Assembly (NCBI GenBank): GCA_003480425.1
Contig: QUJA01000021.1
Span: 1 to 43,895, forward strand
Source: Firmicutes bacterium AM31-12AC
Lineage (GTDB): Bacteria; Bacillota; Clostridia; Lachnospirales; Lachnospiraceae
Reading direction: 5' to 3'
DNA length: 43,895 nucleotides
Shown here piece by piece: positions 377-43,895 of this stretch (its first letter is position 1; each line of letters opens with the position of its first letter). The translations under genes were made by a program, and so were the position numbers. Under the pieces are notes generated by a model, which was not told the DNA's origin, searched no databases, and saw nothing but the letters and a program-made list of their open reading frames with translations.

Positions 377-611
377 CCATATTTTTACATTTTTTTACAT
401 TAATTTTTACACTGCGTTAAAACTACATTTCTATTGTCAATTCTTACAACAATTGATATAAAAATACACCTTTACTGCCCCTCTCCATTCTAAATAGTCA
501 CAAAGCGTGCGTTAGAACACTTGTTCTGTCATTCAAAATATGTTATCCTCTTTCTATATGATAATTCAAAATTTTTAATTTATACAGATGAACAACTAAA
601 CATCATATAAT

Positions 612-786
612 ATATCAGATGTGAGATGACTCCCACCTCTGTAGGTGCGAATAACAAATCAGTATCAGTGGTGGGAGTCAATCCCCATCTGATATAGCCT
701 CCGGCAGGATCGCAGAGATGCGCAGAAGAAGTATGTCATGCATTGCATGACGCGCATCTCGCAGCAAGAATGCAGAGGCATTCTTG
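612..786 (+). repeat. Modular hairpin repeat, copy R1
   Basis: Three nested or adjacent hairpins. The first has outer stem ATATCAGATG (612-621) with CATCTGATAT (686-695) and inner stem GACTCCCACC (628-637) with GGTGGGAGTC (670-679). Next comes the family core CCTCCGGCAGGATCGCAGAG. The second hairpin pairs GAGATGCGC (715-723) with GCGCATCTC (752-760) and holds an inner GTCATGCA / TGCATGAC hairpin. The third pairs CAAGAATGC (765-773) with GCATTCTTG (778-786). Related copies lie at 37131, 41422, 43199 and 43718. It ends 26 bases before the nuclease start codon. Confidence 0.85.
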
Positions 787-812
787 AAATAACTTATAGG
801 AGAAACTTACAT

Positions 813-1484
813 ATGGATGGCTATAAATTTGAATCTCAATGTGCCACAATTTTAAAGAAGAAACATTTTAAGAAAATCGAAGTAACAAAAAGCTCTTGTG
901 ATCAAGGGATTGACATTATTGCATATAAACATGGGAAAAAATATGGCATACAGTGTAAATATTACACTTACCCCGTTGGTAACAAAGCAATCCAGGAGGC
1001 TTATGCAGGAGCAAATTTTTATGATTGTGACAAAGTAATTGTTATGACCAATATAACATTTACAAAATCTGCAATTGAATTGGCCGAAAAACTGGATGTA
1101 GATTTATGGAGTAATTGTCCTACTAACCGTTTCTATAGCATTCCTTTCCGTTTAATGGAAATTTTTAACCTTGCACTTTTAATTTACGGAATTTTAGCAT
1201 TATTTTCTGCAAAATATTCATCCATTCATTTACCGATTCCGATTGATACGATTACACTCATTTTTCTTCTTTCTGCTTCCATATTCGGCTTATTAGGATG
1301 GAGGTTTGTCTTATGCAATCTGGTTGCTACTATATCCTGCCTTTATCTTGCACTTCGTTTAATAGTATTACCAACGCTAACTTCAGCAGGGTATACATAT
1401 TTGTTTCTTCTTGCTTTTATTCCATCCGGAATATACCTGGTACATGCAATATGGCTTTATCTCAGTCGAAAAGTTTTCGACTGA
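813..1484 (+). CDS. Membrane-anchored Mrr-like restriction endonuclease
   Basis: A 223-residue protein. The N-terminal ~100 residues look like an Mrr/HJC-type nuclease of the PD-(D/E)xK fold: a Glu near the start (residue 7), Asp in DQGID (30-34), then IQCK (46-49) with the QxK signature. The C-terminal half is hydrophobic, with about four predicted membrane segments (roughly 115-133, 143-165, 168-190, 194-215). The start at 813 is chosen because AGGAG (798-802) lies 10 bases upstream; an earlier in-frame ATG at 738 would lie inside the upstream hairpin repeat. Mrr-family enzymes usually cut modified or foreign DNA; the target here is unknown. The gene stands alone, with no methyltransferase beside it. 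Its last codons and stop lie inside a perfect 31-base palindrome, and a second repeat sits just upstream. Confidence 0.8.
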   Translation: MDGYKFESQCATILKKKHFKKIEVTKSSCDQGIDIIAYKHGKKYGIQCKYYTYPVGNKAIQEAYAGANFYDCDKVIVMTNITFTKSAIELAEKLDVDLWSNCPTNRFYSIPFRLMEIFNLALLIYGILALFSAKYSSIHLPIPIDTITLIFLLSASIFGLLGWRFVLCNLVATISCLYLALRLIVLPTLTSAGYTYLFLLAFIPSGIYLVHAIWLYLSRKVFD

Positions 1485-1488
1485 GATA
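1458..1488. repeat. Perfect 31-base palindrome (minimal hairpin repeat)
   Basis: TATCTCAGTCGAAAA, one central G, then its exact complement. The arm is the same outer stem used by repeat copies at 43199 and 43718. The nuclease stop codon (1482-1484) lies in the right arm, so the element supplies the protein's C-terminus. It may also act as a terminator, but there is no clear T-run. Confidence 0.8.
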
Positions 1489-3843: not shown

Positions 3844-5303
3844 CTATTCATCCTCCAGTTCTTTATTTTCACCTACGATAAATTCCGATCCAACACCATT
3901 CTTTCCAATCTTATCAACTGACATCGGAACTTCTTTTTTCAGAATCTCCATACCTTCGGAGAACAGAATCCAGATTGACAGCGTCCCATACCGGCTCTTG
4001 TCCGACGTTTCACTCCATCCAAAGAACGTGCACCTAGTGGACGGTGAATTGCATCCAGAATTTCTCCTTCTGTGATCATCTCACATCGGCAAATAATATT
4101 TCCATAAGCTGGATTTTCTTTAATTAACTGATTTCTTTCTTCCAAAGAAAGTGTATCCAGATCTAATATTCCATGTCTAATTGGATTAAAATCAAGCTTT
4201 TCTTCTGCATTCAAAATATCTCTTACAAGCTCTGCAACTGCAACACCGATTGCCGGTGCCGAAGAAAGTCCTGGCGATTCAATACCTGCTGCATTGATTA
4301 GTCCTTGTACATCCGATGCTTCACCAATAATAAAATCATCGCCATCTTCGTGTGCACGAAGCCCCGCAAAAGACGTAATCACTTGACGAAATGGAACATC
4401 CTTAACACTGCGAGAAGAAACTTTTGCAATCTGATTCAATCCATCCATCGTAGTATTTACAGCCTCTTTATCTTCGATATTTACTGCTGTAGGACCCACA
4501 AGTAAATTGCCGTGAACTGTCGGTGTAACAAGTACCCCTTTTCCCATCTTCGATGGAAGCTGGAAAATCGTACTCTTCACATAATCTCCGACTGTCTTAT
4601 CCAAAAGCATGTACTCACCTTTACGTGCAGTGATATGAAGTTTTCTGTCTGAAAGCTGATTATTGATTTCATCTGCATAAACTCCGGCAGCATTGACAAC
4701 AATCCTTGTCTCAATCATCTCATCATTACCATTATCAACATGATGAACCTGAATTGTAAATCCTGCCTCTGTCTTTTCCAGCTTTTCTACTTTTGTATTC
4801 AAAAAGAATTGAACACCATTCTCATATGCATTTTCTGCATATCCCATTGTCATATGAAATGGACAGACAATGCCTCCTGTCGGAGCCCACAATGCACATG
4901 TTACATCATCTACCATATTTGGCTCTTTTTTCAGCAATTCTTCTCTATTTAAAATTTGAAGATCCGGAACACCATTTTTCTTTCCTCTTTCCATTAATAT
5001 TTGAAGTCCTTCCGGGTCTTGCTCTTTCGTACACACAACCAACGAACCGTTTCTTTTAAATGGAATATCCAATTCTTCTGCAATTTGATCCATCATGGAA
5101 TTTCCTATTACATTTAGTTTTGCTTTTTCTGTTCCCGGTACTGCATCAAATCCAGCATGAATAATCGCACTGTTTGCTTTGGATGTTTCATTACAGACAT
5201 CCTCTTCCTTTTCAATTACACATGCTTTTAATTTATATCTGGAAATTTCACGTGCAATTGCACTTCCTGTCACTCCCGCACCAATAATAACAACATCAAA
5301 CAT
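3844..5303 (-). CDS. GlpA-type FAD-dependent glycerol-3-phosphate dehydrogenase (frameshifted near 3' end)
   Basis: A flavoprotein of about 485 residues. The N-terminal FAD-binding motif is GAGVTGSAIAREI; the middle matches the DAO/GlpA oxidoreductase fold; the C-terminus carries a BFD-like [2Fe-2S] domain with CRC and GRCQSGFC cysteines. It is expected to oxidise glycerol-3-phosphate to dihydroxyacetone phosphate together with the next two gene products. Near 3951 the frame breaks after CSPKV; adding one base restores MEILKKEVPMSVDKIG and about 38 codons ending at 3844, just before the next gene. The ATG at 5303 is preferred (GGAGA 10 bases upstream); the ATG at 5309 is too close to the ribosome binding site. 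Confidence 0.87.
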
Positions 5304-5559: not shown

Positions 5560-5696
5560 GAGGATGTCAAGTCATTGCTACAAAAAATATGCGGCTTTTT
5601 TACCACGAAAATGGCTTAAAACCGCATATTTCTGTATAGAGGACGTTATATAATTGTCACAAAGTAAGTGGGGAGGATGTTACGTCATTGTCACAA
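5560..5696 (-). repeat. Three spaced repeats resembling an IS21-type end (remnant)
   Basis: Three related 23-26-base repeats in one direction: TGTGACAATGACGTAACATC (ending 5695), TGTGACAATTATATAACGTC (5661) and TGTAGCAATGACTTGACATC (5582). Multiple spaced repeats at one end are a feature of IS21-family elements. No istA or istB gene is present, so only an end would remain. Between the second and third repeats an AAATATGCGG / CCGCATATTT hairpin is present. Confidence 0.4.
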
Positions 5697-6126
5697 AATT
5701 CTTTCAGTATCATTCCCATCAATTCCTGTACAATGCTTTCTGATTTAATTCTTATCAGATTATCCCATGCGTCCACTTTGCCTAACAAATTCATTTTTTC
5801 TATCAAAATCAGATAAAAATCTGTATTCCCATAGCATCTATTTTCTGGCTTTGTTAGAATTACACTTACTTTTGCTCTCTGCAGTCTCTTTGTCCATTCC
5901 GCAACCAGAATCCCGAACTGTCACACAGACAACATTTTCTTTCACTTCCGATATAAAACATTAAACTACCTGGGAAAATTGGAACTTCCTCTCCGTTTAC
6001 ATATGCCGCCATCTCATCTCTGATTAACACAATATCTCCAGACGGTTTTCATTTTTCATCTAATGCTGTAATAAACAATTTGCCATACTCCAGTCCTCTG
6101 TATATCTCTCTTTAAAGTATAGAAAA
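5697..6126. other. Gene-free stretch with decayed coding remnants
   Basis: No intact gene is present. On the minus strand, 5875-5940 would encode VTVRDSGCGMDKETAE, which resembles the ATP-lid region of a sensor histidine kinase, but the frame is broken on both sides. Another frame near 5700-5810 encodes a short segment (KVDAWDNLIRIKSESIVQEL) ending at the IS-like repeats. I read this as debris from old genes at the edge of the sugar locus. Confidence 0.35.
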
Positions 6127-37062: not shown

Positions 37063-37130
37063 AACAATTCCTCCTAATCTTCTGATTTCACGTTAACCGT
37101 ACACTTCTTAACATTCTCATTGCAAAATGA

Positions 37131-37194
37131 CGCGCACCTCTGCAATCCTGCCGGAGGCTATATCAACTGGGGGATTTACTCCCAGCTGATATAT
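37131..37194 (-). repeat. Modular hairpin repeat, short copy R3
   Basis: On the minus strand ATATCAGCTGGGAG pairs with CCCCCAGTTGATAT to form a short hairpin, followed by the family core GCCTCCGGCAGGATTGCAGA. It lacks the inner GACTCCCACC stem and the later hairpins seen in copies R1 and R2. It sits in the PadR leader. Confidence 0.75.
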
Positions 37195-37361: not shown

Positions 37362-37434
37362 TGAGCGTGCGGGGATTCGAACCCCGGACAACTTGATTAA
37401 AAGTCAAGTGCTCTACCACCTGAGCTACACGCCC
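37362..37434 (-). tRNA. tRNA-Lys (TTT)
   Basis: A 73-base cloverleaf with acceptor GGGCGTG / CACGCTC, anticodon loop CTTTTAA (anticodon TTT) and T-arm GGGGTTCGAATCCCC. Last of five tRNA genes in a minus-strand operon. Confidence 0.95.
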
Positions 37435-37492
37435 ATATTAAATTATTTTGATTAACCGAACTTGTATAATCGGCAAATTTTCTTTTGAAAAG

Positions 37493-37567
37493 GGTGGGTA
37501 GTGGGACTCGAACCCACGATATCCGGAACCACAATCCGACGCGCTAACCAACTGCACCATACCCACC
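37493..37567 (-). tRNA. tRNA-His (GTG)
   Basis: Anticodon loop TTGTGGT (anticodon GTG). The extra 5' G (-1) pairs with C73, the hallmark of tRNA-His; acceptor GTGGGTA / TACCCAC. Confidence 0.95.
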
Positions 37568-37571
37568 ATAC

Positions 37572-37645
37572 CGAGCCTGGGGGGATTCGAACCCTCGACC
37601 TACGGCTTAGAAGGCCGTTGCTCTATCCAGCTGAGCTACAGACTC
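37572..37645 (-). tRNA. tRNA-Arg (TCT)
   Basis: Acceptor GAGTCTG / CAGGCTC, anticodon loop CTTCTAA (anticodon TCT), T-loop TTCGAAT. Third gene of the tRNA operon. Confidence 0.95.
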
Positions 37646-37694
37646 ATATCATATTCCCCTTTTCTCTGGTTTCCTACGAAAATTCCGTAAGAAA

Positions 37695-37764
37695 AGCGGT
37701 GATGGGAATCGAACCCACGTATCCAGCTTGGAAGGCTGGTGTTCTACCATTGAACTACACCCGC
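37695..37764 (-). tRNA. tRNA-Gly (TCC), one base missing in acceptor stem
   Basis: Starts GCGGGTGTAGTTCAATGGTA with anticodon loop CTTCCAA (anticodon TCC). The 3' acceptor strand reads CACCGC, where CACCCGC is needed to pair with GCGGGTG, so one C is missing (plus-strand 37698-37700). A tRNA without it would not fold properly, which points to a base-calling error. Confidence 0.9.
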
Positions 37765-37768
37765 AAAG

Positions 37769-37842
37769 TCGGGGTGACAGGATTCGAACCTGCGACCTCC
37801 TGGTCCCAAACCAGCGCTCTAGCCAAGCTGAGCCACACCCCG
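37769..37842 (-). tRNA. tRNA-Pro (TGG)
   Basis: Acceptor CGGGGTG / CACCCCG, anticodon loop TTTGGGA (anticodon TGG). First gene of the operon Pro-Gly-Arg-His-Lys. Confidence 0.95.
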
Positions 37843-40960: not shown

Positions 40961-41155
40961 CTAATAGTTATCTCTTACATCATATGCATTTTTGCTCTGT
41001 GTATTTGATGCATTCTTATTTTTGGAATTTACACTATTTTTACTCTGTGTATTCGATGCATTCTTGTTCTTTGATGATGTGTTACTTGTATTTTTGTTCT
41101 GTCCATCTGAAACATCATTTCTACTTGTTTTTGGGTCACTATAATTTTTTGTCAT
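40961..41155 (-). CDS. Small Asn/Lys/Ser-rich repeat protein
   Basis: A 64-residue hydrophilic protein starting MTKNYSDPKTSRNDVSDGQN. It contains two copies of the 11-residue unit NKNASNTQSKN plus a partial one (NKNTSNTSSKN). It has no cysteine, membrane segment or signal peptide and is likely disordered. AGGAGG lies just before the ATG, so translation is credible despite the low complexity. I know no function; composition recalls small spore or stress proteins, but this is only a resemblance. It stands alone, flanked by the MITE-like element and a long non-coding stretch. Confidence 0.65.
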   Translation of the reverse strand: MTKNYSDPKTSRNDVSDGQNKNTSNTSSKNKNASNTQSKNSVNSKNKNASNTQSKNAYDVRDNY

Positions 41156-41409: not shown

Positions 41410-41421
41410 ATCGTTTAAACA

Positions 41422-41657
41422 AAGAATGTGCAAGGCACATTCTTGCGCCTGCGGCGGTCGCTTGCGACACCTACATTGTACGCCGCAGTGCGCATCCTTA
41501 GCGGAGCGGTTTTTATATTAGGAAAGCACTTTCCTAATTTCAAGAATGCCTCTGCAATCCTGCCGGAGGCTATATCAGATGGGGGATTGACTCCCACCAC
41601 TGATACTGATTTGTTACTCGCCACCTACAGAGGTGGGAGTCATCTCACATCTGATAT
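41422..41657 (-). repeat. Modular hairpin repeat, longest copy R2
   Basis: Read on the minus strand it starts with the same first hairpin as R1 (outer stem ATATCAGATG / CATCTGATAT, inner GACTCCCACC / GGTGGGAGTC), then the core CCTCCGGCAGGATTGCAGAG and the GCATTCTTGAAAT tail of R1. It then adds an ATTAGGAAAG / CTTTCCTAAT hairpin, the second-type core CGCTCCGCTAAGGATGCGCA with a CTGCGGCG / CGCCGCAG stem, and a final AAGAATGTGC / GCACATTCTT hairpin. It therefore joins modules of the R1 and the R4/R5 types in one element. It lies downstream of the 154-residue HAAS gene. Confidence 0.85.
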
Positions 41658-41693
41658 AAAAAGCCCGGTATCGCTTCTTTCAAAGAAATACCG
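41658..41693 (-). terminator. Terminator of the 154-residue HAAS gene
   Basis: Minus-strand stem CGGTAT / ATACCG extended by TTC / GAA pairing, then GGGCTTTTT. It sits directly against repeat R2. Confidence 0.7.
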
Positions 41694-43198: not shown

Positions 43199-43303
43199 AA
43201 TCTCAGTCGAAAAGACTGAGATTAACGCTCCGTGAGGATGCGCAGTGATTTTGATAGGAATCTGTCAGCTTCGCTGACCAGAATCACGCGCCAAGTCTCA
43301 CGG
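43199..43303 (+). repeat. Modular hairpin repeat, copy R4
   Basis: First hairpin AATCTCAGTC / GACTGAGATT (43199-43223, loop GAAAA), then the core ACGCTCCGTGAGGATGCGCA. A larger structure has outer stem CCGTGAG (43230-43236) / CTCACGG (43297-43303), stem GTGATTTTG / CAGAATCAC and inner hairpin GTCAGCTTCGCTGAC. It differs from R5 by paired changes in the stems. The rest of 43077-43456 is AT-rich with no gene. Confidence 0.85.
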
Positions 43304-43456
43304 ACGTTCGACTTGAATTTATAATCAGAGTATTTGTATCATACTTTATTTGCATACCTTTTGCAATCTCTTTCTATAAATTCGCATAGAAAATATACAG
43401 TAAATTCTTCTCAAAATCCCATTCAAAATTTTTTTGTAATTTTTTTATTTTTTCTA

Positions 43457-43518: not shown

Positions 43519-43592
43519 GTGCGATTAGCTCAGCTGGATAGAGCGTCTGGCTACGGACCAGAAGGTCGGGGGTTCGAATCCTCTATCGCACG
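43519..43592 (+). tRNA. tRNA-Arg (ACG)
   Basis: A 74-base cloverleaf with acceptor GTGCGAT / ATCGCAC, anticodon loop CTACGGA (anticodon ACG, expected to be edited to ICG by TadA) and T-loop TTCGAAT. It stands alone with its own promoter and terminator. Confidence 0.95.
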
Positions 43593-43624: not shown

Positions 43625-43717
43625 GTATTCGATTGCAATACCATCCCTTCTAGAAAATATATCGTCTCCCGTCCCCGTTCCGACCGCACCTAGTATTCAT
43701 AGTGCTGTTTTCTATTT

Positions 43718-43895
43718 TATCTCAGTCGAGAAGACTCCCACCTCTTTCAGTTGGTGAGTAACAGCAAATTTGTCTCAGTGGGAGTCCAATCTCCGACTGA
43801 GATAAACGCTCCGCGAGGATGCGCAGTGATTCTGTAAAGAATGTGTCAGCTACGCTGACCAGAATCACGCGCCAAGTCTCGCGGCTGCTCGACTT
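43718..43895 (+). repeat. Modular hairpin repeat, copy R5 (cut by window end)
   Basis: Outer stem TATCTCAGTCG (43718-43728) / CGACTGAGATA (43794-43804) and inner stem GACTCCCAC (43733-43741) / GTGGGAGTC (43778-43786), with a loop sharing GAGTAACA with copy R2. It then has the core ACGCTCCGCGAGGATGCGCA, stem GTGATTCTG / CAGAATCAC, hairpin GTCAGCTACGCTGAC and the closing CTCGCGG. It combines the R1-type inner stem with the R4-type core. The sequence ends in the element, so its right border is unknown. Confidence 0.85.

Follow-up and report, generated by a model that had tools for sequence, protein, structure and literature searches.

Intergenic hairpin repeats of Lachnospiraceae as short gene-less mobile DNA elements, probably non-autonomous relatives of IS200/IS605

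Hairpin elements of the window and their plan

The window analysed in this study, that is, the whole stretch of 43,895 nt of contig QUJA01000021.1 from Firmicutes bacterium AM31-12AC, carries a number of hairpin repeats between its genes, and the question they raise is what kind of sequence is copied here and by which route it spreads. An initial annotation, made from the letters alone, had described a modular family with compensatory stem changes and selected folding at five places, together with one bare palindrome; all of these are present, and that general description proved right (Table 1). Several details had to be revised. The shared core CTCCGnnAGGATnGC is exact in R1, R2 and R3 (three matches against 0.10 expected), but the other elements differ from it, with CTCCGnnAGGATGC in R4 and R5, CTCCGCTAAGGATGC in the second element of R3 and none in the bare palindrome. 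What had been taken for one element at 41422-41657 is two abutting minus-strand elements of subfamilies A and C; the inner GACTCCCAC stem, which had been assigned to R1, R2 and R5, is carried by R1, R3 and R5 but not by R2 or R4; and R2, read as a join of R1-type and R4-type modules, is a truncated subfamily A copy that holds no R4-type module. The exchange of CCGTGAG/CTCACGG in R4 for CCGCGAG/CTCGCGG in R5 is true for that pair, but it does not mark a maintained stem, because CCGCGAG occurs with CTCACGG in L114, L120 and L141; it is in H1, H2 and H3 that stems are maintained.

Table 1. Hairpin elements of the window and their parts
Feature	Position	Strand	Details
Target pentamer TATAT left of R1	611-615	+	Read from the sequence
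R1, full subfamily A element	616-788	+	H1 616-696 (long form), core linker 697-714
R1, right part		+	H2 715-760, H3 766-785, terminal GAA 786-788
H1-only palindrome, subfamily B type	1456-1488	+	TTTAT, then CTCAGTCGAAAAGTTTTCGACTGAGATA; no core
R2, 3'-truncated subfamily A copy, short H1	37128-37193	-	Target TATAT 37189-37193; element runs down from 37188
R3a, subfamily A, long H1, right module shortened by internal deletion	41539-41653	-	Target TATAT 41654-41658
R3b, subfamily C	41418-41537	-	H1 41518-41537, core 41489-41508, H2 41449-41488, H3 41422-41444
R4, subfamily B, short H1	43202-43317	+	Core 43226-43244, H2 43245-43287, H3 and end 43293-43317; left flank TTAAT
R5, subfamily B, long H1	43721-43895	+	Target TTTAT 43716-43720; core 43807-43825, H2 43826-43868; cut by the window edge 3 nt before its end

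With reference to the copies aligned, the element plan consists of an AT-rich pentamer followed by H1, the CTCCGnnAGGATnGC linker, H2, H3 and a final TTGAA or TTGAC. H1 begins with C and has an outer stem, to which the long form adds an inner hairpin (GACTCCCACCTC..AGGTGG), and the linker between H1 and H2 reads CTCCGnnAGGATnGCA. H2 is made of a lower stem, a bulge of about 10 nt and an upper stem that is often GTCA..TGAC; a short linker leads on to H3 (AAG..CTT), after which comes the terminal GAA or GAC. Subfamilies A (R1, R2, R3a), B (R4, R5), C (R3b) and others have these linkers in common and differ in their stems. Palindromes lie near both termini, H1 on the left and H3 on the right, while inspection of the listed copies disclosed no common terminal inverted repeats, apart from a subterminal 7-nt match (AGTCGAG/CTCGACT) near the ends of subfamily B. 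The elements measure from 55 to about 190 nt and are therefore too short for a transposase gene.

R1, R3 and R5, the elements taken into the fold test, fold much better than 200 dinucleotide shuffles each (z -7.8, -8.2 and -8.7, respectively). Compensatory stem changes are directly observed: covariation of the right module (core, H2 and H3) is strong across five subfamilies in an alignment of 12 rows, 11 of them distinct and a single one from subfamily C, which was fitted to the structure and so favours the pairing result. In this alignment 20 of the 28 stem pairs change on both sides and 97.3% of the cells pair, with 50 two-sided against 3 one-sided changed cells; none of 500 shuffles matched any of the five measures, and slid versions paired at 25-47%. 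A covariance model based on seven right modules, taken from subfamily A and close kin (model R1, not to be confused with element R1) detects subfamily B at about 1e-6, whereas in subfamily C it gives 7e-4 for L126, a weak 0.45 for the window copy R3b and nothing for L121. The Rfam scan that the initial annotation had proposed left the elements without a match at gathering score, which in the window was reached only by tRNA and SSU rRNA; the weak hits, chiefly to microRNA hairpins, were far under it.

As to the surroundings, several of the window elements are located near RNA genes: the start of a minus-strand 16S rRNA gene occupies the left edge (1-68), five tRNAs lie near R2 (37362-37842), and one tRNA precedes R5 (43519-43592). 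Directly after R1 comes an open reading frame (738-1484) with an Mrr-type restriction endonuclease domain (PF04471, E 2e-21), the 3' end of which is made up by the H1-only palindrome. Direct repeats unrelated to the elements were also noticed, one of 25 nt in three copies at 5560-5697 and one of 39 nt in two copies at 40988-41074.

Insertion sites and IS605-like left ends

Our data provide evidence that the intergenic hairpins are copies of a family of mobile, non-coding, gene-less short DNA elements. An IS605 element of C. catus is found both empty (L153, L156) and occupied by a subfamily A copy (L144, L149), which lies where tnpA ends, just ahead of tnpB. The empty site reads ..GTTATAT^CGAGACGC.. 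and the occupied one ..GTTATAT-CAGCTGGG...CTTGAA-CGAGAAGC.., with no duplication and with a common C that leaves one nucleotide of freedom in the junction. A further copy (L088) is nested in a B element, where the spacing is as in the uninserted homologues and the target letters differ (TTTGT vs TATAT); a second nested copy, L084, was left out because 8 nt differ from its homologues. Insertion 3' of TATAT without duplication is thus observed in one exact occupied/empty pair, the only exact empty site, and in one nested copy. A search with joined flanks in Blautia relatives met sequences too diverged to yield further empty sites, the junction of the L042 site being spanned inexactly at about 71% identity. 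The preference for the pentamer is plain in the left flanks of 49 distinct subfamily A copies with full flank (T in 44, A in 48, T in 48, A in 49 and T in 45, a count that includes one mis-anchored row, L087), and other subfamilies use TTTAT and TTTAA as targets.

These observations bear on whether the elements might be ordinary MITEs moved by a DDE transposase, as their size, intergenic location, copy number and deletion derivatives would allow. The exact empty site without target duplication and the lack of a common terminal inverted repeat in the listed copies, the 7-nt match of subfamily B aside, make this reading highly improbable, and we rank it lowest of all those considered.

The left ends point instead to IS605. 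Of 62 distinct element windows, 33 were matched by a profile built from 14 IS605 left ends at E<=0.1 and 29 at <=0.01 (best 2.8e-6), 32 of the 33 on the expected strand and position, against none of 620 shuffled windows at 0.1 (best 0.71). The 29 windows missed were mainly those with short H1 or cut by a contig end, though at least four long-H1 copies (L058, L188, L199, L330) were also missed; the short H1, in which the IS605-like hairpin is absent, characterises 24 of the 50 subfamily A copies that were parsed. It speaks against an IS605-type element and is consistent with slippage between GGGAG repeats. In the reverse search, an H1 profile run on 48 IS605, Y1 and tnpB loci found IS605 left hairpins at E 0.002-0.7, and the same profile also detected IS605 right-end hairpins at E 0.0015-0.24, with 2.2 as the best score in five-fold shuffles.

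In the elements and in IS605, moreover, a given target goes with the same bases ahead of the hairpin. Among 46 parsed copies from 125 sites, the target and the six bases preceding the hairpin are TTTAT-AGAAGA in 17, TATAT-AGATGA in 17 and TTTAA-AGAAAT in three, the last being near relatives, while nine copies display eight other combinations; the 14 IS605 ends gave TTTAA-AAGAATT in 10 and TTTAT-AAGAAGA in 4, all by search patterns in which target and guide were partly fixed beforehand. In IS608 and ISDra2 the guide lies at the 5' foot of the hairpin, according to PMC6006769. The same paper describes for IS200/IS605 (IS608, ISDra2) an insertion 3' of a short target, a left-end hairpin and a 5'-foot guide, all of which resemble the present family, and the lagging-strand template, for which the strand bias of the elements is suggestive, with gene direction only partly excluded as its cause. 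The elements are unlike IS200/IS605 in being gene-less, in their different right end, and in that additional pairing is possible between their left flank and a segment immediately 3' of H1 (ATATA, AGATAA, AGTTAA). Such pairing involves four to five of the first five positions in 77 of 87 parsed copies, an approximate count because in some B copies an internal repeat supplied the pairing. The idea that the 3' arm of H1 is a copy of each target was also considered, and it does not hold generally.

Taken together, we consider it probable, at roughly 0.78, that the elements are non-autonomous IS200/IS605-type elements (PATEs), mobilised in trans as folded single-stranded DNA. A Y1 (HUH) transposase given in trans would most likely cut out the top strand in folded single-stranded form from the lagging-strand template; insertion would follow 3' of the AT-rich pentamer (TATAT, TTTAT or TTTAA) without target duplication, the pentamer probably being recognised, as in IS608, by bases at the 5' foot of the inner left hairpin, and H3 with TTGAA would form the right end. 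We infer the enzyme, the single-strand route and this role of H3/TTGAA, while the insertion without duplication at one exactly matched site, the pentamer preference, the IS605-like left end and the common target/guide combinations are observed directly. The guess of the initial annotation, a mobile element recognised as folded DNA, is accordingly the best-supported reading, whereas its remark that no named family has this build does not hold, as the general kind, PATE, is already in print (PMC3119063).

The PATEs of Haloquadratum walsbyi (PMC3119063) are alike in lacking terminal inverted repeats and target duplication, in their near-terminal palindromes, short 5' target and IS605-like ends, and in having no room for a transposase. 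They undergo repeat-mediated core deletions, and their terminal-only form of 52 bp corresponds to copies of 55 and 58 nt here (L136, L137), which retain both ends. Deletion forms that preserve the ends are thus directly observed in this family. The present elements differ from the H. walsbyi PATEs by an extra right module of two hairpins with a conserved linker, by many subfamilies with covarying stems, and in that no IS605 element with the same right end was found.

Other rearranged copies were recorded. Most of the right module has been deleted from R3a and L045 between GCnGAGG repeats; L081, which occupies the site of L045, retains it. L065 and L076 represent one site in two related genomes, in one case with H1 and in the other without, the bounds being GATATA repeats. 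At about 4580-4740 in a B. glucerasea locus (L133), the terminator tail of the flank recurs in inverted form (TTTTTTACTTTAT .. ATAAAGTAAAAAA) in place of H1, ahead of a subfamily B right module, an arrangement that possibly arose from template switching. The truncation of R2 recurs in the same flanks in R. faecis (L037).

The copies are unevenly distributed between the strands. In G272, whose skew reverses near 0 and at about 1.55 Mb, 14 of 18 copies lie on the plus strand of the first arm and 13 of 14 on the minus strand of the second (Fisher test, 8e-5), so that 27 of 32 top strands fall on the lagging-strand template. Since 78% of the predicted genes of this genome run with replication, a level that 27 of 32 does not exceed (p=0.52), gene direction accounts for part of the bias; the orientation is kept at 10 of 12 convergent or divergent gene pairs and in 2 of 4 cases where genes oppose replication. 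Judged by local skew, the G-rich strand carries 46 of 58 subfamily A loci, again the lagging-template orientation; where the skew is >=0.05 the count is 42 of 53. Convergent or divergent pairs account for 14 of 17 here, and with opposed genes added the figure becomes 18 of 24 (p=0.023). Pooled, the convergent and divergent pairs give 24 of 29 (p=5e-4, which assumes independence, although the set contains a few neighbouring rows and rows for one site shared by related genomes). The bias is an observed property of the family, and it agrees with single-strand transposition without proving it.

The right module and candidate partner genes

The right module (core-H2-H3) is the part that the PATE/IS605 reading leaves unexplained. 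A match to a known transposon end, which the initial annotation had raised as an adverse outcome, exists for the left end through the IS605 profile and the target/guide correspondence, but the right module had no match in Rfam, in the tnpB loci or with the IS605 right-end profile. By eye, it has GAGGATnGC and GCAAGAA in common with IS605 right ends, and the TnpB omegaRNA encoded there is similar in its GGATnGC, stem-loop, GCAAGAA and terminal hairpin. This likeness first suggested that core-H2-H3 is a TnpB omegaRNA, a candidate that was set aside: a second model (model R2, again not the element of that name) was negative at the right ends of 13 and 30 tnpB loci, 43 in all (best E 1.7 and 0.24), and the IS605 right-end profile scored the elements no better than shuffles.

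A broader version would have the right module kept as a functional orphan RNA of guide or regulatory type, with no detectable kinship to known omegaRNAs, spread by means of IS605-like left ends and serving some nuclease or regulator in trans, possibly in an omegaRNA-like manner with the 3' flank of each copy as guide. The conserved unpaired linkers, the strand-specific build and the strongly covarying stems of the 11 distinct sequences would suit such an RNA, as would the two motifs seen by eye; yet one-sided changes are rare and do not favour RNA, and neither the model nor the right-end profile lends it support. In its favour, TnpB is somewhat commoner where the element occurs (42 of 94 genomes against 61 of 205 without it, p=0.013, kinship not corrected); against it, a TnpB match is missing in 52 of the 94 element-bearing genomes. 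The TnpBs of G272 are presumably of IS607 type, judging from the gene upstream, and their right ends appear by eye unrelated to the elements. On balance we regard this RNA reading as unlikely, though it is the foremost of the alternatives.

For the PATE reading a Y1 partner would be expected in trans, and no gene-carrying (autonomous) copy with both element ends was found. Model R2 had no match within 1.5 kb of 30 Y1 loci, while BLAST and the H1 profile placed an element or left-end remnant within that distance in three of them (L218, L226, L234), which could be about what copy density alone would give. In three of the 16 copy-rich genomes no Y1 match was obtained, where draft gaps or loss are possible, and G272 has only long Y1 matches, of the kind that we take to be RAYT.

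This leads to the possibility that the elements are REP-like repeats moved by such a domesticated Y1 protein. Both are high-copy intergenic palindromes, single-copy long Y1 proteins exist in some copy-rich genomes (G272, G373, G092, G295), and the gene at L234 has a diverged element some 0.4 kb upstream. The elements are larger than REPs, however, with three hairpins, they lack the GTAG-type foot, and the copy-rich genomes without Y1 match also speak against it. Long RAYT-like genes at L224, L234 and L235 have a different repeat, GGGGACGG..CCGTCCCC, on their flanks, and no element was seen beside the other two of the five genes inspected (L225, L233). RAYT was set aside as the partner on the model R2 result at the 30 Y1 loci and on these five genes, and we hold this reading very improbable, well below that of an RNA.

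Distribution and meaning of the family

The spread of copies across genomes is directly observed. One 21-nt pattern detected 60 stretches in the genome collection, 37 of them in one Blautia glucerasea draft and the other 23 in further Lachnospiraceae and kin. Subfamily B copies share 90-97% identity with R5 in B. glucerasea, where a copy reaches 97%, and in C. catus, R. faecis and A. hallii, and about 81-88% in E. ramulus. In the family of G077 ([Ruminococcus] faecis), model R2 matched 94 of 299 genomes at E<=1e-3 with at most 14 candidates scored per genome, and in G272 it found 32 copies in 1.6 Mb, half of the chromosome. Across the class at 1e-4, it matched seven of 391 genomes, namely five of the 16 listed from the family of G001 and two of one other genus. 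R5 had no match in the plasmid and phage collections searched, nor in 40 relatives of G001, and a search with R1 gave one diverged match in G001. A genus-wide pattern scan around G001 with three mismatches gave chance-like matches and was set aside. The repeat family was not found in searches of the open-licence literature, and the available portions of PMC3119063, PMC7290912, PMC6006769 and PMC2267715 hold no description of it.

In summary, a family without Rfam match is present in about one third of the sampled genomes of one gut family, with tens of copies in some. Its elements provide naturally varied target/guide combinations that bear on the single-strand transposition code, and its many paired stem changes provide material for structural analysis. 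The conserved right half, which fits no tested IS605 end, poses a concrete question.
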